From positions 1 to 35,256 of the IMG/VR virus record IMGVR_UViG_3300025093_000062: a stretch of 35,256 nucleotides of DNA; one strand, 5' to 3'. The stretch comes from a virus. Below, piece after piece: positions 6,279 through 22,833 of the stretch (position 1 is the first letter of the stretch; each line of letters starts with the position of its first letter). The notes beneath the pieces are model-generated. The model was not told the origin of the DNA. It searched no databases and saw only the letters and a program-made list of their open reading frames with translations. The position numbers and the translations under genes are program-made.

Positions 6279-6947
6279 ATGACACAGAATTCTATTAACA
6301 ATAGCGCCTCTTCTTTAGACATAGATAACCTAAACCTAGACGGGAATACTATTTCTAGCACCGACACAAATGGAAATATAATTTTAGCTCCTGATGGAAG
6401 TGGAACCGTATCGGTTACAACAGCTCCTATTGTTCCCTCTGGAGACCGAGCAGATTCCTTAGGTTCCGCAACCAATTCGTGGGATAATGTTTATGCAGAT
6501 GGGCTTACTTTTGATGATGGAACAAATGTGCTTTCTACATTTGTCGCCCTTACTTCCTTTACTCCTGAAATTGCTTTTGGAGGAGCAAGTGTTGGAGTGA
6601 CATATTCTAGTCAATATGGCCGCTATGCTCGTATTGGAAATATGGTGTATGTAACAGCCACTATTGTATTAACAAGTAAAGGAAGTTCCACAGGAACTGC
6701 TAGACTTATTACTCTTCCTTATTCGACTCCAGCAGGGGCAGCAAGTTTTGTTGCCGCTTTTAGTGTTTTGTGGTCAAATATAAATTTAAACACAAACTAC
6801 ACCCAAGTCACAGCTGCAATGGGAGCCTCTGTTAACACGATTGGATTTAGTGAATGTGGAGACAACGTGACACGCGCTTCCTTAACAGATGCTGAGTTTG
6901 CTAATGACACGTTAGTCACTGTCACGGGATGGTATATTACTTCCTGA
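6279..6947 (+). CDS. Tail fibre tip-type protein (222 aa)
   Basis: The first about 75 residues carry the DGSGTVSV and SGDRADSLGSATNSWDNVYA segments widely seen in phage fibre shafts. The rest (from about residue 90: FTPEIAFGGASVGVTYSSQ, RYARIGNMVYV, then SSTGTARLITLPY) is a C-terminal fibre domain pattern I have seen in many phage tail proteins. It is the last of the fibre cluster. Its TGA overlaps the next ATG by one base (TGATG), so the membrane protein that follows is translationally coupled. The ribosome site is weak. Confidence 0.75.
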   Translation: MTQNSINNSASSLDIDNLNLDGNTISSTDTNGNIILAPDGSGTVSVTTAPIVPSGDRADSLGSATNSWDNVYADGLTFDDGTNVLSTFVALTSFTPEIAFGGASVGVTYSSQYGRYARIGNMVYVTATIVLTSKGSSTGTARLITLPYSTPAGAASFVAAFSVLWSNINLNTNYTQVTAAMGASVNTIGFSECGDNVTRASLTDAEFANDTLVTVTGWYITS

Positions 6948-7324: not shown

Positions 7325-8203
7325 TTAACCCTTAGATGAAATACGATAAAAACCATTGGAACTTTTTTTGACGTATTTTTCTACATCTATCCCATCCATC
7401 TTCATTTGTTCGATATCATAACCTAAGCGTCCCGAACAAAATGTGACACTGTGATTAAACGCTCTAAAATTATTTCCATCTCCAAATTTTAGAATCTCTT
7501 TTTTAAGTTCTTTCTTTCTAAGTTCTGCTAGTTTAGCTACTTTATCGTGATCATCATACTCACTTAAAAGCTCTTTTAAAGAGGGATCATCAAGCTCCAC
7601 ATAGTCTTTTTCAGAAATTTTAGGAGCAATTCCCATTTGAACTTGCCTCCAAAACTCTGTAGCCTTGATTATCATTTCTTCTTGAAGAGAAGGTTGCGCA
7701 AACATTTCAATCATCATGCAACTCGCATACCGATAATCCCAAATAGCGAGTTGAGCTCTTTTTGGGTTTGCTAGCATAATTTGCCATTGGATTTGATGTT
7801 GCCAATAAAGAGGAACACTTTGCTTTTCTCTCGCATTATGTAGAACTTCTTCATTCACAGGACATTTGATTTCTACTAAAAATTCTTTGTCTATGTCATA
7901 TCCATCTAAAGACGCTCTAAAAAACGGGTTTTTTGTGTCTTCAACACAGAGAGGCTTTAAATTAAGAAGAGCATTTTTATTCACCCATTTTCTTGCTTTT
8001 TCTTCATTAGCAATCCCATGTTTCATTGGATTGGTGAGCTCTTTCTTTTTCCCAAACCCGCACTTTTCCTCCCATAGAGCATAAGGAGTCATATGGGGAT
8101 TGCTCCCCATAATAACAGCAATATCAGAGGCTCCTATCCCATTTTTTCTCCACTCAAGCCATTCGTTCCCACTTTGCCCTTCATTAAAAGAGACTATTTT
8201 CAT
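7325..8203 (-). CDS. YqaJ-family viral exonuclease (292 aa)
   Basis: This is a lambda-exonuclease-like nuclease of the PD-(D/E)xK fold, expected to resect double-stranded ends so that the ERF protein can anneal the resulting strands. Visible motifs are EWLEWRKNGIGASDIAVIMG near the N-terminus, a conserved helix Glu in ANEEKARKW, the catalytic D and ExK in FRASLDGYD and LVEIKCP (about residues 115-135), and the helix YWQHQIQWQIMLA after them. The start is set by AAGGAGG just upstream; a longer reading to 8266 lacks such a site. The first 20 bases overlap the end of ssb, so the operon reads ERF, SSB, exonuclease. Confidence 0.88.
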   Translation of the reverse strand: MKIVSFNEGQSGNEWLEWRKNGIGASDIAVIMGSNPHMTPYALWEEKCGFGKKKELTNPMKHGIANEEKARKWVNKNALLNLKPLCVEDTKNPFFRASLDGYDIDKEFLVEIKCPVNEEVLHNAREKQSVPLYWQHQIQWQIMLANPKRAQLAIWDYRYASCMMIEMFAQPSLQEEMIIKATEFWRQVQMGIAPKISEKDYVELDDPSLKELLSEYDDHDKVAKLAELRKKELKKEILKFGDGNNFRAFNHSVTFCSGRLGYDIEQMKMDGIDVEKYVKKSSNGFYRISSKG

Positions 8204-17446: not shown

Positions 17447-17581
17447 ATGCCTTTTAAGTCAAAAGCGCAAAGACGTTTTTTATATGCAAAGCATCCAAAG
17501 GTTGCTAAGAAGTTTGAAAAACATACCCCTCCTAAGAAAAAACTCGTAGAAAGGGTGCGTAAAAACAAAAAGATGTCGTGA
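17447..17581 (+). CDS. Short basic phage protein, FKSKAQRRFL type (44 aa)
   Basis: The opening PFKSKAQRRFLYAKHPKVAK closely follows a short motif found at the start of many small phage proteins annotated as hypothetical. The rest is Lys-rich (PPKKKLVERVRKNKKMS). AAAGGAG seven bases before the ATG gives a secure start, and the stop overlaps a GTG of the next frame. Function is unknown; proteins of this type are usually found next to head genes, as here. Confidence 0.75.
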   Translation: MPFKSKAQRRFLYAKHPKVAKKFEKHTPPKKKLVERVRKNKKMS

Positions 17582-17622
17582 GTATTATACATTATTTTAT
17601 AAAAAAATTAAGGGGTCTTAAG

Positions 17623-17892
17623 ATGAGAAAAAAAGTAATTTCTCACCTGAAGGGAGATATTAAGGGCTACAAGAAGGAAAGAAAATATCTCAAGGATGAG
17701 ATTAAAGAAGATTCGCAGCTCATGAAAGGGCTTAAGGAGAAGAAGAATGGAAAGAAAGCGTGCTGCAACGCGTGTGAAAAGATCAAAGAAAAGCGCGCGC
17801 AGAGTAAAAATAGGCAAAGGAATGTCTCTAAAAAGGGGGCAAGAAGAAAAGCTGTCAAAAAGGGCCGGAAGCTCAAACATAGGAAAGTATAA
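17623..17892 (+). CDS. Lys/Arg-rich small protein (89 aa)
   Basis: The N-terminal half is a charged helix (VISHLKGDIKGYKKERKYLK, then DEIKEDSQLMKGLKEKK) of a type I recall from other phage proteins next to head genes. A CCNAC cysteine cluster follows, and the C-terminus is almost pure Lys/Arg. AAGGGG upstream favours the ATG at 17623; a GTG at 17578 that overlaps the preceding stop is an alternative. Its final 146 bases overlap the next gene in a different frame, and both frames encode highly basic protein there. Confidence 0.62.
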   Translation: MRKKVISHLKGDIKGYKKERKYLKDEIKEDSQLMKGLKEKKNGKKACCNACEKIKEKRAQSKNRQRNVSKKGARRKAVKKGRKLKHRKV

Positions 17893-18064
17893 AAAAGTGG
17901 GTAAGAGAAAATTTTGTGGTCCAAGCGGCGGCGCTGCTCCAGGTACTTATCCTGTGGACTCTAAAAAAAGATGCCGCGCGGCCCTTTCTTACGCTAGAAA
18001 TGCTCCTAATCCATCTGGGGTCAAAAAATGTGTTTACAAAAAGTGTAAGTTCAAAACAAAATAA
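17747..18064 (+). CDS. Basic phage protein with conserved C-terminal domain (105 aa)
   Basis: The first about 50 residues are basic and low in complexity. The C-terminal half (SSNIGKYKKVGKRKFCGPSG, then GTYPVDSKKRCRAALSYARN, NPSGVKKCVYKK) matches a short domain I know from other phage proteins, with the YP-V-x(4-6)-R-A-x-A-A-L-x-YA-x-N-A-x-x-P pattern. Four cysteines could bind a metal or form disulphides. An excellent AAGGAG seven bases before the ATG at 17747 supports this start even though it creates a long overlap with the preceding gene. It ends at a hairpin and is the last rightward gene before the accessory island. Confidence 0.7.
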   Translation: MERKRAATRVKRSKKSARRVKIGKGMSLKRGQEEKLSKRAGSSNIGKYKKVGKRKFCGPSGGAAPGTYPVDSKKRCRAALSYARNAPNPSGVKKCVYKKCKFKTK

Positions 18065-18125
18065 GCGGTAGTCCATTATTAATCGGTCGGTACTACCGCC
18101 CTTCATAAAAGAAAAAGCGGTAGTG
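18065..18125. terminator. Bidirectional terminator with three GCGGTAGT copies
   Basis: GCGGTAGT occurs at 18065-18072 and 18117-18124, with its inverse ACTACCGC between them at 18092-18099. The middle copy can pair with either flank, giving two mutually exclusive 8-bp hairpins. The right-hand one followed leftwards, or the left one followed rightwards, would separate the convergent genes ending at 18064 and 18127. U-runs are modest (TTTTTC in the minus-strand loop), so strength is uncertain. Confidence 0.6.
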
Positions 18126-18126
18126 T

Positions 18127-18372
18127 TTATCTTCCTTCCTGGGCGTATTGATATCTTTCTACAAGATAGTTTTTAGAAACCCTGAATGCCATGGGTACGT
18201 ACCCACATAAAGCAGCATCTCCTTGCAAAAGAGTTCCTGTCATGCTTGTGCTATTTAAAAAGAGCTGGGCATTTTTTAAGGGAAAGACCATCCCTAGTTC
18301 AGAGGATGCATATTTCTTTCTACCCGATTCGCTAGAGAGGTAAAGAATCCCAGTTGTCGAAGCACACGCAAA
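18127..18372 (-). CDS. -1 frame extension of the coiled-coil gene (81 codons)
   Basis: This frame is open from the T9 tract to a TAA at 18127-18129 and encodes FACASTTGILYLSSESGRKK, then a stretch with LGMVFPLKNAQLFLNSTSM and LCGYVPMAFRVSKNY, a composition typical of a folded domain. It has no start with a ribosome site near its beginning; an ATG near residue 26 of the extension lacks one too. Joined by a -1 shift at T-TTT-TTT, the fused protein would have 180 residues: coiled coil followed by a globular C-terminal domain. Programmed frameshifting, a gene broken by one inserted or lost T, or a sequencing error in the homopolymer would all look the same here. Confidence 0.6.
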   Translation of the reverse strand, partial: FACASTTGILYLSSESGRKKYASSELGMVFPLKNAQLFLNSTSMTGTLLQGDAALCGYVPMAFRVSKNYLVERYQYAQEGR

Positions 18373-18668
18373 AAAAAACCGACTAGCGCCTCTACCTTTC
18401 TTCCTGTATTCATCACTTCTTTTTTTAGGGAGATTATTTCAGTCTTTAGCCCTGCGTTTTCTTGCTTCAGTTCTCTAACCTCTTGCTTGAGATTTTTAAC
18501 CTCATGCTTAAGCTCCCTAACTTCTGTGGTTAGATCGTCTATCTTTCCTATCGCTTGACGAAAAAGAATGCGCAAATCTTTATCCCGATCATTGCCGTTG
18601 TCTTTTCTATCGGGAACATGGGGCATCATTACGTGAGACGTGCTCACTGCATTCGTTACTGCGCTCAT
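18294..18668 (-). CDS. Coiled-coil protein, zero-frame product (124 aa)
   Basis: After a short N-terminus (MSAVTNAVSTSHVMMPH) there is a long heptad coiled coil at about residues 40-90 (LTTEVRELKHEVKNLKQEVR and onwards), then GFFLRVLRQLGFF and a stop at 18294. AAGGAG precedes the ATG, so the start is sound. The end is doubtful: at codons 97-100 the gene reads GGT-TTT-TTT-TTG, nine T in a row, and the -1 frame beyond stays open for 82 codons of normal-looking protein. The short product may therefore be a minor or artefactual form. The coiled coil plus following domain resembles a fibre, needle or adhesin layout. Confidence 0.65.
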   Translation of the reverse strand: MSAVTNAVSTSHVMMPHVPDRKDNGNDRDKDLRILFRQAIGKIDDLTTEVRELKHEVKNLKQEVRELKQENAGLKTEIISLKKEVMNTGRKVEALVGFFLRVLRQLGFFTSLANRVERNMHPLN

Positions 18669-18774
18669 AACATACTCCTTTGTAAAATTAATAAGCGGGA
18701 ACAGAGCATCAATTTAATGATTTTATTTGAATATAAGTTAATTTTTTAATAGAATTTTAAAAAAATTTTAATAA
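18669..18774. promoter_or_regulatory. AT-rich divergent intergenic region
   Basis: This very AT-rich gap lies between the leftward coiled-coil gene and the rightward small membrane-protein pair and should hold promoters for both. No clear -35/-10 pair was read. AAGGAG at its left edge belongs to the leftward gene. Confidence 0.35.
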
Positions 18775-18984
18775 GTGAAAACTATGGGATTTTTGGCTAT
18801 ACATGTTCTTGCAGCAAGCATTAGTTTTTTGTCGTTCGAAACCGATGAAAAAATAGCTCTTAGATTTGATGAAGAAAATAGTTTAACAGCTGCCCAAGAA
18901 GTTAGAGACTTACAGCGTCGCATACAAAGGGAAAGAGCGCGCAGAGAACAGCGACAGCGCAGAGAAGGTAGGGGAAAAAAGTGA
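18775..18984 (+). CDS. Small membrane or secreted protein with charged helix (69 aa)
   Basis: A short hydrophobic N-terminus (FLAIHVLAASISFLSF) could be a signal or membrane anchor; the rest is a charged helix ending in an Arg-rich run (RRIQRERARREQRQRREGR). The start is a GTG at 18775 or the ATG at 18784; neither has a clear ribosome site. Its TGA overlaps the GTG of the next gene, and both proteins share the same plan of hydrophobic start plus basic helix, so they look like a functional pair. The plan recalls spanin-like lysis pairs, but there is no lipobox or endolysin to support that. Confidence 0.5.
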   Translation: MKTMGFLAIHVLAASISFLSFETDEKIALRFDEENSLTAAQEVRDLQRRIQRERARREQRQRREGRGKK

Positions 18985-19229
18985 GAAATAAATTGTTAAT
19001 TACTCCTATAGCTATTCTTGCGCTTGTTTTTCTATTTTATAAAATAAGTTGTCCTAAACCTCCGCTCTCAAACTGCCAGCGAACTTCCGTAGCTCGCCAC
19101 AAAGAAAGAAAGCTTGTATCTGTAGAAACTGCGAAGGAAAGAAAGAAAAGATATAGGGAAACAAGGGCAGAGTTCACTCGTCTTAAAAAACTAAGAAGGA
19201 AAAAGAGGCTCCAAGAAAAGGATTCCTAA
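18981..19229 (+). CDS. Small membrane protein with basic helical tail (82 aa)
   Basis: One transmembrane segment (about residues 4-21, LLITPIAILALVFLFYKI) is followed by CPKPPLSNC and a long Lys/Arg helix. The cysteine after the membrane segment is not in a convincing lipobox. A GTG start at 18981 overlaps the previous stop (GTGA), with GGTAGGGG upstream. Together with the preceding gene it forms a two-gene rightward unit in the accessory island. Function unknown. Confidence 0.52.
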   Translation: MRNKLLITPIAILALVFLFYKISCPKPPLSNCQRTSVARHKERKLVSVETAKERKKRYRETRAEFTRLKKLRRKKRLQEKDS

Positions 19230-19388
19230 CCGACGCTAACTTTAGCAAGTATTAGCGGATCATTAGCACGTTTTATGCGATTATAAGCGCTTATATATTA
19301 AATAGATAAGAAAAAATTAGCGGAATTAGCAACTTTAGCAAGTAAGAGAAGGAGAAAAAGTAAATGCGTGAAGACGGAACGTTTAGCC
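19230..19388. promoter_or_regulatory. Repeat-rich intergenic region near recombinase cassette
   Basis: AACTTTAGCAAGTA occurs as a direct repeat (about 19238-19251 and 19330-19343), with several TTAGCGGA/ATTAGCA variants between. A perfect 14-bp palindrome TATAAGCGCTTATA lies at 19282-19295. Such a set of short repeats round a palindrome could be a recombinase site or a partition or operator site. A 22-codon rightward ORF at 19364-19432 with AAGGAG upstream runs antisense into the neighbouring gene and may be a remnant. Confidence 0.4.
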
Positions 19389-19580
19389 TTAATCTTCTTG
19401 ATGCCTATGCAAAATATCTACCAACTCCTTAAGAAGAGATTCTAGTCTGTTGAGTTTTTCTTCCTGTTTTTGATAGCGTGTAAAAATAGATTTTCTTAGG
19501 CGTTTTTGGTCTTCTTTAATTTCTTCCAACTTTTCATTGGGAGGGGCGTTTTCAGAGAAAAGATAGAGCTGTTTTTCCAT
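19389..19580 (-). CDS. Small coiled-coil protein after recombinase (63 aa)
   Basis: After MEKQLYLFSENAPPNE the protein is one amphipathic charged helix (KLEEIKEDQKRLRKS, then LNRLESLLKELVDILHRHQ), so it probably dimerises as a coiled coil. The ATG at 19580 is four bases after the recombinase stop; the TTG just before it is less likely. No family is recognised. Its tight position suggests it is co-translated with, and may help, the recombinase. Confidence 0.6.
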   Translation of the reverse strand: MEKQLYLFSENAPPNEKLEEIKEDQKRLRKSIFTRYQKQEEKLNRLESLLKELVDILHRHQED

Positions 19581-19584
19581 CAAT

Positions 19585-20142
19585 CTAAATAATAGTTAAG
19601 TAATTATAAATTGTTGTTTTAGATATATTATACATAAGGGAAATTTCCTGAATGGAAAGATTTTTTTCTTCATAAATTATTTTCATTCTTTTAGCTTCTT
19701 TCAAGGTTAATTTTTTCGGCCTTCCTCCTTTTTTACCGCGTGCTCTTGCTCCTTCCAGTCCCTTTTTTATTCTCTCCCTAATAATATTTCTTTCTTGCTC
19801 AGCAAGAGCTGCCATAATATCAAATATAAATTTTCCATGAGTAGTCCGTGTATCAATTTGTTGTGAGAGAATTTGAAGGTTTATTTCCCTTTCTCTCCAT
19901 TCTTCTAAAAGATTAATGAGAAATTTGTTAGATCTTCCTAAACGATCAAGAGTAGTTATAGTAACCAAGTCTCCTCTTCTTAATTTTTTTTGCATTTCTA
20001 GAAAGCCTGGTCTATTAGAAAAAGCACCAGAACAAATATCGGTAAATATTTCGGAACATTCAGCCTGTTTTAAATTTTCTATTTGATATTTTAATGATTG
20101 AGAAGGAGTAGAAATCCTCGCATATCCAAATTTTAAACTCAT
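19585..20142 (-). CDS. Serine recombinase, resolvase/invertase family (185 aa)
   Basis: This small serine recombinase cuts and rejoins DNA at short inverted-repeat sites. The catalytic domain begins FGYARISTPSQSLKYQIENL with the nucleophile Ser at residue 11, followed by TTLDRLGRS near residue 65, the AALAEQERNIIRERIKKGLE helix and a GGRPKKL linker. The C-terminal part (SIQEISLMYNISKTTIYNYL) is the DNA-binding HTH. The length is typical of Tn3 resolvases and Gin/Hin-type invertases (about 180-200 aa) and all key residues are present, so it should be active. It follows the SDR gene by two bases. It may mobilise or invert the accessory segment, resolve genome multimers, or be a remnant of a transposon. 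Confidence 0.92.
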   Translation of the reverse strand: MSLKFGYARISTPSQSLKYQIENLKQAECSEIFTDICSGAFSNRPGFLEMQKKLRRGDLVTITTLDRLGRSNKFLINLLEEWREREINLQILSQQIDTRTTHGKFIFDIMAALAEQERNIIRERIKKGLEGARARGKKGGRPKKLTLKEAKRMKIIYEEKNLSIQEISLMYNISKTTIYNYLTII

Positions 20143-20144
20143 TC

Positions 20145-20777
20145 TTATTTACTTTCCTTTATGATTTCTATAATTTTTTTTAATGTTTTGCGAGCACACG
20201 AAAAACTTAAAGAGGCTTGAGGAAAAGGGCCTTCTCCCTCCTTGTGTTCCCCTTTTAAAATAGTAGGAGGAAGCTTAGAAGAGGGGATTTTAAGAGGAGG
20301 AGGATAAACAACATATAAGGGGTTCCGGTGAATATTGCATAAATCGATTAAAGCTTCTTCTAATGCTTTTTTAGTGGCGCTATAAATTCCAAGGAAAGGA
20401 TAATAATTCTTAACAACGTCACTAGAAATTAAAATAATATTTAATTTATCTTTTATTTTTAGTAATAATTTTTCAATAAAAAGAAGAGGCCCAAAGAGAT
20501 TTGTAGTGAATAATGTGTTTATTTGATGAGACGAAAATTGATTAAAGGTTCCTAGGGCTCCTATTCCAATGTTGTGAATATAAATGCAAGGAGTACATTT
20601 TTTTAAAATAGTGTCTATATAAGTTTCAAACTTTTCGGTTTGTTGCAAGTCTAAATCAAAAAACCCATCATTTTGTATGCGAGTGGTCCCCTTAACTACA
20701 TAGTCATTTTTAAGATTTTCATAAAGAAACCTTCCTAGTCCTCGATTAGTCCCGCTTATTAAAATGCACTTTTCCAC
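20145..20777 (-). CDS. Short-chain dehydrogenase/reductase-like protein (210 aa)
   Basis: This is an NAD(P)-dependent oxidoreductase fold. The cofactor motif SGTNRGLGRFLYENL is at residues 8-22, HNIGIGALG replaces the usual NNAG near 70, a Ser sits in IILISSD near 118, and the catalytic YSATK with its Tyr-x-x-x-Lys is near 130. It is a little short for an SDR (usually about 250 aa) and the substrate loop is brief, with a proline-rich PPPLKIPSSKLPPT segment. The substrate is unknown. It directly follows the cupin gene and precedes the recombinase, so this is a three- or four-gene leftward cassette. Confidence 0.85.
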   Translation of the reverse strand: MEKCILISGTNRGLGRFLYENLKNDYVVKGTTRIQNDGFFDLDLQQTEKFETYIDTILKKCTPCIYIHNIGIGALGTFNQFSSHQINTLFTTNLFGPLLFIEKLLLKIKDKLNIILISSDVVKNYYPFLGIYSATKKALEEALIDLCNIHRNPLYVVYPPPLKIPSSKLPPTILKGEHKEGEGPFPQASLSFSCARKTLKKIIEIIKESK

Positions 20778-21269
20778 TCAATCTTTCCATTGGAATTTTT
20801 TGATAAAATCGACATGGGATGGAAATAGACGAACGAGTTCTTCATATTTCCCCTTGACATGATCGTCTATATGAAAGGAAGGGGCATTGAAATGAAAAAT
20901 AAGAGAAAAGTTTTCATAATTTTCCTCATTTATTTCTGCGCATTGCCAAAAACCTGAGGGAACAATATGAAAAAGTTCTTTATTTTTTCCTAAAACTACA
21001 CATTTTTTTTCTCCTCCGGGAGAAAGAGTGTAAAGATTTAAGTCTGCTCCATTTTGATATTGCCAGATTTCATATCCATTAATTTTATGAAGAGGATTTA
21101 AGTAGGGACGTTCTAGAAGATAAAACGCTGTTGAAAAAAGGCTCCTATCTTCTTTAGTTTGAGTATAAGCTTTAGAAATTTTTACACAATTAGGATAGAA
21201 AGCTTTTAAGTGTCCGTTTTCTACTTTTTGGGTTAACTGCAGTTTTTCAATAAAAAATTTTGCATCCAT
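20778..21269 (-). CDS. DUF985-type cupin protein (163 aa)
   Basis: The sequence follows the DUF985 (cupin_5) pattern: an opening AKFFIEKLQLTQK helix, SLFSTAFYLLERP, a HKINGYEIWQYQNGADLNLY barrel motif, VPSGFWQCAEI and an FHFNAPSFHIDDH end. Length (about 160 aa) fits the family. Cupins of this type are small metal- or sugar-binding barrels; the biochemical role of the family is not settled. The His and Glu of the barrel motif are kept. It is the first gene of the leftward cassette, with GGAGAG before the ATG, one base from the SDR gene, which hints at a joint small-molecule pathway. Confidence 0.78.
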   Translation of the reverse strand: MDAKFFIEKLQLTQKVENGHLKAFYPNCVKISKAYTQTKEDRSLFSTAFYLLERPYLNPLHKINGYEIWQYQNGADLNLYTLSPGGEKKCVVLGKNKELFHIVPSGFWQCAEINEENYENFSLIFHFNAPSFHIDDHVKGKYEELVRLFPSHVDFIKKFQWKD

Positions 21270-21672
21270 AATCTCTCCAAAAAACTTTGAATATAGAGAA
21301 TAAATGAACTTTGATTTATTTACTATATTTTTTTACTAAAAAGGGTAGGGAATCGATAAATTGCCTAATAAGATTTTTATATTTCAAAAATGGGTGTTTT
21401 GTGAACAAATGTGACTTTTCACATAAGAGATTATTTCAAAAATAAAAAATTACGGTCGAATGTCTAATTTTTTGGAAAGAGTGGTTAATAAATTATCTTC
21501 AAGCCTTATGATGAAGGAAAAGGTTGCTAACACCTGATTTAGCCCCCGTCTGAGAGTTGGAGGCTTTTTTGTATCTATGTGTCATCTTTTTTCCATCCTG
21601 TCCTGAGGGGTTGATTTTTCTTTAAATTTATGTAAGGAAGATCTATATTTACGCAATCTTACGGAGACCATT
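21270..21672. other. 403-base intergenic region with palindrome and orphan terminator
   Basis: No gene is supported here. The left part must hold the promoter of the cupin-SDR-recombinase cassette. A perfect inverted repeat ATGTGA-CTTT-TCACAT lies at 21409-21424 and could be an operator. A rightward terminator lies at 21542-21570 although no rightward gene ends here, so a short untranslated RNA from this interval is possible. GGAG upstream of 21673 belongs to the next gene. Confidence 0.4.
21542..21570 (+). terminator. Rightward terminator without an upstream gene
   Basis: GCCCCC (21542-21547) can pair with GGAGGC (21559-21564) with one mismatch around an 11-base loop, followed by six T. It has the form of an intrinsic terminator on the plus strand, yet the nearest rightward coding gene upstream ends at 19229. 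Confidence 0.6.
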
Positions 21673-22161
21673 ATGACAAAGTATATATGTGGGTTATTTC
21701 TTTTTTTAGCATCAGTTCTGAGCGCACAAAATCCTGAATATTTTGCAGATTTTGCCTGGAAAAAAAACAACGGAAAAGAATTGGAAGCCGGCCTTGGAAG
21801 ACGCACCTATCATGGAAGGCTTGGCTTTGATACCAGAGCTGGATATAAATATGAATATGATAAGAAAGAAAACATCAAAACCTATTCTCCCTGTTTGCGT
21901 GCTGGTGTTTACTATGACTTAATGTCATATCAAGGAATGAAAATTTACGCAGGTCCCAGTCTTCTTTGTAAGCTTAAAAATGAAAGAGATCTAGCTGCTA
22001 AAAAATGGAATAAGTGGTTTAAAAAAGAAATTAAGCCTTATCTAACTTTAGGAGGTAGATATGGCAAAAGTTTTTTAGAATTCAGCTATATCCCTTATTT
22101 CATTAACAAAAACGCTTCGGAAGATACGAAGTTAGAATTGAAGTTAGGTGTTTTCCTCTAA
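21673..22161 (+). CDS. Secreted beta-rich (outer-membrane-like) protein (162 aa)
   Basis: A classical signal peptide (MTKYICGLFLFLASVLSA, cleavage expected near residue 18-19) is followed by alternating aromatic/polar strands (FADFAWKKN, AGLGRRTYHGRLGFD, TRAGYKYEYD, GVYYDLMSY, MKIYAGPSLL, LTLGGRYGKSFLEFSY) ending in a LELKLGVFL strand. This suggests a small beta-barrel or periplasmic beta protein of a Gram-negative-type host. It is not a known phage structural protein, and is likely cargo that changes the host surface. GGAG lies eight bases upstream. Its 3' end overlaps the convergent transporter gene by 18 bases. Confidence 0.65.
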   Translation: MTKYICGLFLFLASVLSAQNPEYFADFAWKKNNGKELEAGLGRRTYHGRLGFDTRAGYKYEYDKKENIKTYSPCLRAGVYYDLMSYQGMKIYAGPSLLCKLKNERDLAAKKWNKWFKKEIKPYLTLGGRYGKSFLEFSYIPYFINKNASEDTKLELKLGVFL

Positions 22162-22833
22162 AAGAGGATTATAAAAACCTCTTTTCGTCCATAAGAAGAA
22201 AATAGCATTTCCAACGATACAGAGTACCTTGACAATGTATGCAGATAAAATACAATGCCAGGGATGTTCCAAAATGCCATAAAGCCCAATGTAGGTAAAA
22301 AGAATGGTATCTAGAAACTGGCTAACCAAGGTTGAAGAGAAAAACCTAAAAACAAAAGGAAAATTTGTAAATCTCTGTTTAAGCTGTTGAAAGAGAAAAA
22401 GGTCAATGCGGTCGCTGACAAAAGTGACAAATACGGAGGCAAAAATAATGCGTGCACTGTTTTTAAAAATGGTGTCTAAAGCATCGCTAAATTCGATCGA
22501 GTGAGGCGCTGATTGATAAATAAGATGAACGGCGGCAAGAAACAAAAAAATCACAAGCATTGCCATTCCCTTGTACAAGAATTTTCTCGATTCTTTTACT
22601 CCCCATATTTCTTGAATCAAATTTAAGCACAGTACAGAACCTACCGTGTATACATCGCATGTTGTAATCACAAGGGAAAAGAAGTTAATTTCTTTTTTTA
22701 CAAAAAGATTGCTTAAAAACAGAAACAGAAAGAAAAGAAATCCTAGTCCGTTTTTCCCCCATTTTTTTCTAAACAAAAAAACAGCTCCTACGATTAATAG
22801 TAGGTGAAAAAGCATAATTCCTTCGTTTGTCAT
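22144..22833 (-). CDS. yhhQ: YhhQ/VUT-family queuosine-precursor transporter (229 aa)
   Basis: The family imports 7-deazaguanine precursors of queuosine through the inner membrane. About six or seven hydrophobic segments are visible. The conserved stretches are a TCDVYTVGSVLCLNLIQEIWG block with the N-x-x-x-E-x-x-G pattern, ARIIFASVFVTFVSDRIDLF, FRFFSSTLVSQFLDTILFTY and a late AYIVKVL helix. Size (about 220-230 aa) is normal. Divergent members occur in Chlamydiae. Two starts are possible: ATG 22833, or ATG 22815 with AAGGA just upstream. No queuosine-inserting or DNA-deazaguanine gene is in the window, so it probably feeds host enzymes. Confidence 0.85.
   Translation of the reverse strand: MTNEGIMLFHLLLIVGAVFLFRKKWGKNGLGFLFFLFLFLSNLFVKKEINFFSLVITTCDVYTVGSVLCLNLIQEIWGVKESRKFLYKGMAMLVIFLFLAAVHLIYQSAPHSIEFSDALDTIFKNSARIIFASVFVTFVSDRIDLFLFQQLKQRFTNFPFVFRFFSSTLVSQFLDTILFTYIGLYGILEHPWHCILSAYIVKVLCIVGNAIFFLWTKRGFYNPLLEENT

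Follow-up and report, generated by a model that had tools for sequence, protein, structure and literature searches.

The window, that is, the whole stretch of virus DNA analysed (35,256 nt; IMG/VR record IMGVR_UViG_3300025093_000062), carries on its minus strand an ORF at 18294-18668 that encodes 124 aa, from an ATG at 18668 with AAAGGAG 6 nt upstream to a TAG at 18296-18294. In the AlphaFold model of its product a disordered N-terminus precedes a long coiled-coil helix (residues 25-105). Within the ORF lies a run of exactly nine T (T9, minus strand, 18378-18370; GG-T9-GCG spans 18380-18367). The minus strand at 18383-18366 reads GTC GGT TTT TTT TTG CGT, and the zero-frame codons GGT TTT TTT TTG match both T_TTT_TTT and T_TTT_TTG. 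From the run the -1 frame continues over 18378-18127 for 83 codons plus a stop (TAA, 18129-18127); measured from stop to stop it is open at 18438-18130, for 103 codons. The computed joined translation, with a -1 slip at T9, is exactly 180 aa, and peptides such as VEALVGFFFACASTTGILYLSSESGR would span the junction. On re-reading the minus strand, an earlier note on this DNA had the coordinates and both product lengths right, as well as the stop-free -1 frame from the T run to 18127 and the fit of the run to the X-XXY-YYZ slippery heptamer. T9 and A9 runs number six in the window against 8.5 expected, T9 being no commoner than shuffles give.

The -1 frame also holds a candidate separate ORF of 54 aa (18127-18291, minus strand), whose in-frame ATG at 18291 follows the zero-frame stop after 2 nt. 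The claim that the -1 part has no ribosome site of its own is thus nearly right: it lacks a spaced SD, but this ATG exists, with AGGG, the sole SD-like sequence, abutting it without a spacer. Sequence and folding together indicate a terminator-like element (18053-18124, minus strand) directly past the -1 stop, between convergent genes; it consists of three ACTACCGC/GCGGTAGT copies able to form hairpins, then TTATTTTGTTTT. This element was absent from the output of a consensus terminator scan that allowed loops up to 8. If the gene ended at the zero-frame stop, a gap of 229 nt would follow, among the four longest in the window.

The T9 gene adjoins a resolvase gene in an accessory stretch, outside the structural block and on the opposite strand. 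Host-like genes occupy 20145-22833 of the accessory stretch: a short-chain dehydrogenase (20145-20777), a Cupin_5 gene (20778-21269) and a Vut_1 vitamin uptake transporter (22144-22833). On the plus strand, the lysine-rich ORFs 17578-17892 and 17747-18064 share 146 nt, read in different frames; the latter is conserved in relatives, and in some of these, frames overlap or abut close to an A8 run at that place.

Related phages, host and homologue searches

A portal-protein search supplied the related IMG/VR loci (best 80 of 242). At 59-61% identity the portal profile matches contigs from two MAGs, one of Simkaniaceae and one of Chlamydiia, and from this we infer a Chlamydiota host; two further, weaker matches, which lie in bins carrying archaeal and burkholderial labels, are likely misplaced contigs. 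In three relatives the spot of the T9 gene is taken by minus-strand ORFs that score above the curated cut-off for a U-box domain (PF04564), at L008:4892-5650, L007:9363-10115 and L029:13874-14827. The U-box, a eukaryotic-type ubiquitin-ligase domain, was found in three of 44 records and in none of 14 control genomes. These ORFs are possible phage-borne effectors of Chlamydiota.

The homologue comparison proposed in the earlier note was run, and neither half of the gene has a homologue in the collections searched. Both halves were run against viral contigs, the zero-frame protein against genome contigs, and the -1 half against phages, plasmids and PDB, all without a homologue. For the zero frame, Pfam and PHROGs returned generic coiled-coil matches alone; both halves were also searched for in 49 related phage records, with one weak coiled-coil match and no homologue. 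Among 234 genomes of the phylum of G050 the best E value was 0.0076 per genome, which is chance at that number, and an Rfam search found no match. DNA comparison with relatives showed conservation in the flanks only: window positions 18023-19596 have no matches in relatives, none of which was found to carry the T9 gene. By these comparisons the T9 gene is an orphan accessory gene.

Coding signal and protein properties

Codon tables for scoring were taken from 26 other ORFs of the window. The interval 18130-18378 is open throughout in 0.4% of 20,000 dinucleotide shuffles. After T9 the -1 frame scores +0.125 bits/codon, a score that 2% of off-frame windows attain, and in this gene-like codon usage the 'normal-looking protein' of the earlier note is borne out. 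The zero-frame tail after T9 scores -0.25 bits/codon and is not gene-like, and the zero frame before T9 scores +0.03. The -1 signal is strongest past 18291 (+0.163 bits/codon), and the 24 -1 codons before the ATG at 18291 are weakly positive (+0.07; zero frame -0.25). In a two-frame codon model the best switch lies at 18377-18371, inside T9, and gains 32 bits over a reading that ends with the zero-frame stop. It is a shallow optimum (60.0 to 61.6 bits across about 60 nt) that moves to 18386, by 0.6 bits, with minus-strand genes alone. Known genes of the window contain 54 off-frame stretches that run for 60 or more codons without a stop; two of these score as high as the -1 stretch, so the latter may be open by chance. 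The -1 stretch is probably coding. Open codons, codon usage, a switch near T9 and the terminator-like element past the stop together make the 180-aa joined reading probably the true or ancestral coding unit.

The coiled coil described earlier is well modelled, with AlphaFold pLDDT 94-98 across most of the helix, and the zero-frame tail prolongs the helical model (H108-119). The C-terminal 'globular domain' of the same description is unsupported: the -1 half has pLDDT 46, an uninformative value from single-sequence AlphaFold with no alignment. The joined reading, across both frames, contains a hydrophobic segment, ALVGFFFACASTTGILYLS (18334-18389, minus strand), with a hydropathy of 1.65 over 19 residues; each frame alone stays below the usual 1.6 (zero frame 1.35, -1 part 0.87). 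Joining the frames would thus yield a borderline membrane-helix segment across the junction.

Slippage signals and homopolymer base rates

The heptamers T_TTT_TTT and T_TTT_TTG at 18378-18369 stand in the X_XXY_YYZ arrangement, with the -1 frame open downstream. An SD-like stimulator is expected 6-17 nt before the second base of the motif (PMC4066793); GAGG at 18389-18392 (minus strand), upstream of the slip site, lies at the allowed spacing (11 and 14 nt), and 16-19% of positions in genes have such a motif by chance. The stem-loop sought after the slip site did not stand out: among simple hairpins starting 4-10 nt downstream none rose above background (folding z = -0.43), and 60-nt downstream windows fold middling to weakly for the T9 gene (rank fractions 0.48-0.80). 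Some known -1 frameshift sites have no stimulator. With no homologue, no simple downstream structure and a GAGG of a kind that 16-19% of positions have, the word 'programmed', which the earlier note itself set beside a plain indel, is without independent support. In E. coli, U_UUU_UUU and U_UUU_UUA are much less shift-prone than A_AAA_AAG (PMC5009743).

Utilised transcriptional slippage calls for a run of about nine A or T; E. coli RNA polymerase slips on at least seven T, with T preferred over A, and at the runs measured it inserts more than it deletes (PMC6260861). T9 lies inside the coding region and one added nucleotide enters the open -1 frame. Because an inserted nucleotide leads into exactly that frame, T9 may well leak, by analogy with these systems, and give some 180-aa product. 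Leaking is not programming, and nothing shows selection for slippage at T9.

Base rates were taken from 85 related phage contigs (508 kb of aligned conserved coding sequence, overlapping hits counted more than once). Among runs of at least eight in conserved genes of relatives one of 60 breaks its gene, among runs of nine one of 11, and runs of nine also occur in intact genes of the related contigs. In L010 the rusA-like gene (6441-6834), conserved in relatives, breaks at an A9 (6648-6656), past which its reading goes on in the +1 frame. When frames were tested at runs of eight or more in the related contigs, the alternative frame reached 40 or more codons further in 46 of 378 cases (about 12%), many of these longer frames being ordinary neighbour genes. 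Thirteen T runs of nine or more lie in ORFs of at least 80 codons, the window's included, and L038 and L085 also have an alternative frame 50 or more codons further. In the L038 gene (7231-8332) a T9 at 8122-8130 is followed two codons later by the zero-frame stop, and the +1 frame has 68 further open codons that are coding-like (+0.144) and include a hydrophobic stretch; homologues of this gene stop near its zero-frame stop, without the tail. No long alternative frame accompanies the T9/T10 runs close to the 3' ends of L008/L007 genes. The idea of a recurrent T9 slip cassette at this spot, tested on L007, L008 and L038, was rejected: gene ends repeatedly have T runs nearby, but no two-frame layout is conserved. 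In the window, conserved genes have no other frame break (the four pairs listed join neighbour genes or antisense frames), so errors are not general in this contig.

Competing readings and known systems

The reading that we tentatively favour, with somewhat less than even confidence, is that the frame break at T9 stems from a homopolymer indel, or from a consensus error, in an orphan gene and is perhaps leaky by slippage. The minus-strand accessory gene of a presumed Chlamydiota phage would have a coding sequence spanning both frames, and the ancestral 180-aa unit would comprise a disordered N-terminus, a coiled coil, the hydrophobic segment and a short C-terminal region. A change in T9 length, either a real indel in the phage lineage or a consensus error, would break the frame and leave the 124-aa protein as the main product of the sequence as written, while a nucleotide added in transcription or ribosomes slipping on U_UUU_UUG could give a minor 180-aa product. 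The coding-like, seldom open -1 stretch and the switch optimum at T9 argue for this reading, although that optimum is shallow. It would also place the hairpin/T-rich element directly past the stop, where an end at the zero-frame stop leaves 229 nt, and it accommodates the borderline membrane segment of the joined reading only. The A9 break in the rusA-like gene of a relative gives a precedent, and orphan singletons in the GeneTack survey are expected to be one-third gene overlaps and two-thirds sequencing errors and indels (PMC3711429). No homologue was found with the joined protein in one frame, which leaves the indel itself an inference, and the intact conserved genes of the window count against an error. 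The missing simple stimulatory structure fits an indel, yet heptamer and SD-like motif are both present and fit rather a T9 that is kept so that two proteins come from one gene: the 124-aa product and, in the minority, a 180-aa form that also has the hydrophobic segment and the C-terminal tail. The longer form would arise where RNA polymerase adds a nucleotide at T9, where ribosomes slip by -1 on U_UUU_UUG, or both. Such utilised slippage seems to us rather unlikely. The coding-like -1 frame, the insertion-biased slippage of E. coli RNA polymerase on T runs and known slippage-made C-terminal extensions, e.g. Shigella spa13 (PMC5009743), are consistent with it, but homologues and downstream structure failed to appear and the heptamers U_UUU_UUU and U_UUU_UUA are weak in E. 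coli. The second T9 gene with a coding-like alternative frame, in L038, is a parallel in its favour, but homologues of that gene end without the tail and the L008/L007 runs lead into no long frame.

It is unlikely that 124 aa make up the whole protein, with the open -1 frame being chance or decayed sequence. The tail that prolongs the helix, the equally high scores of 2/54 long off-frame stretches and the 46/378 longer alternative frames in relatives agree with that view; codon usage, however, shifts at T9 from the zero to the -1 frame, the tail read in the zero frame does not resemble a gene and the 229-nt gap would go without explanation. Two separate genes, the second (54 aa) translated from the ATG at 18291 by coupling from the stop at 18294, are very unlikely: the start lies 2 nt behind the TAG and the coding signal peaks after it, but AGGG leaves no spacer and the 24 codons before the ATG are already weakly positive in the -1 frame. 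As a wider proposal, accessory genes of Chlamydiota phages might keep T9 runs from which slippage yields a soluble coiled-coil protein and a minority longer, membrane-anchored form; we think this quite unlikely. If programmed, the T9 gene would be a case of T-run recoding from tailed phages whose hosts are intracellular bacteria, a setting with few studied phages; if an indel, it would mean that short accessory genes in metagenome contigs need calling with frame breaks in mind.

Two known classes were rejected. Chlamydial inclusion membrane (Inc) proteins have a bilobed hydrophobic domain of two close membrane helices, and in the T9 gene a single segment reaches 1.6 hydropathy, in the joined reading. 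Phage tail assembly chaperones of the G/GT type are frameshift genes among tail genes beside the tape measure, whereas the T9 gene lies in the accessory stretch, outside the structural block and on the opposite strand. With -1 frameshifting at X_XXY_YYZ, as in bacterial IS elements and phage tail chaperones, it shares a heptamer in frame, an SD-like motif at allowed spacing and overlapping open frames; it differs in having no detected downstream stimulator, a weak motif class, orphan status and a place outside the structural block. Transcriptional slippage at A/T runs, known from Shigella spa13 and endosymbiont poly(A) genes (PMC5009743) and from Citrobacter tssM (PMC4256274), has in common with it the homopolymer, an added nucleotide that leads into an open frame and a C-terminal extension, whereas no homologue was found in which the T9 run is conserved. 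Like the GeneTack singletons (PMC3711429), the T9 gene is a single orphan with one frame break and no clustered homologues; unlike them, it has its break on a run able to slip, followed by a frame that looks coding.
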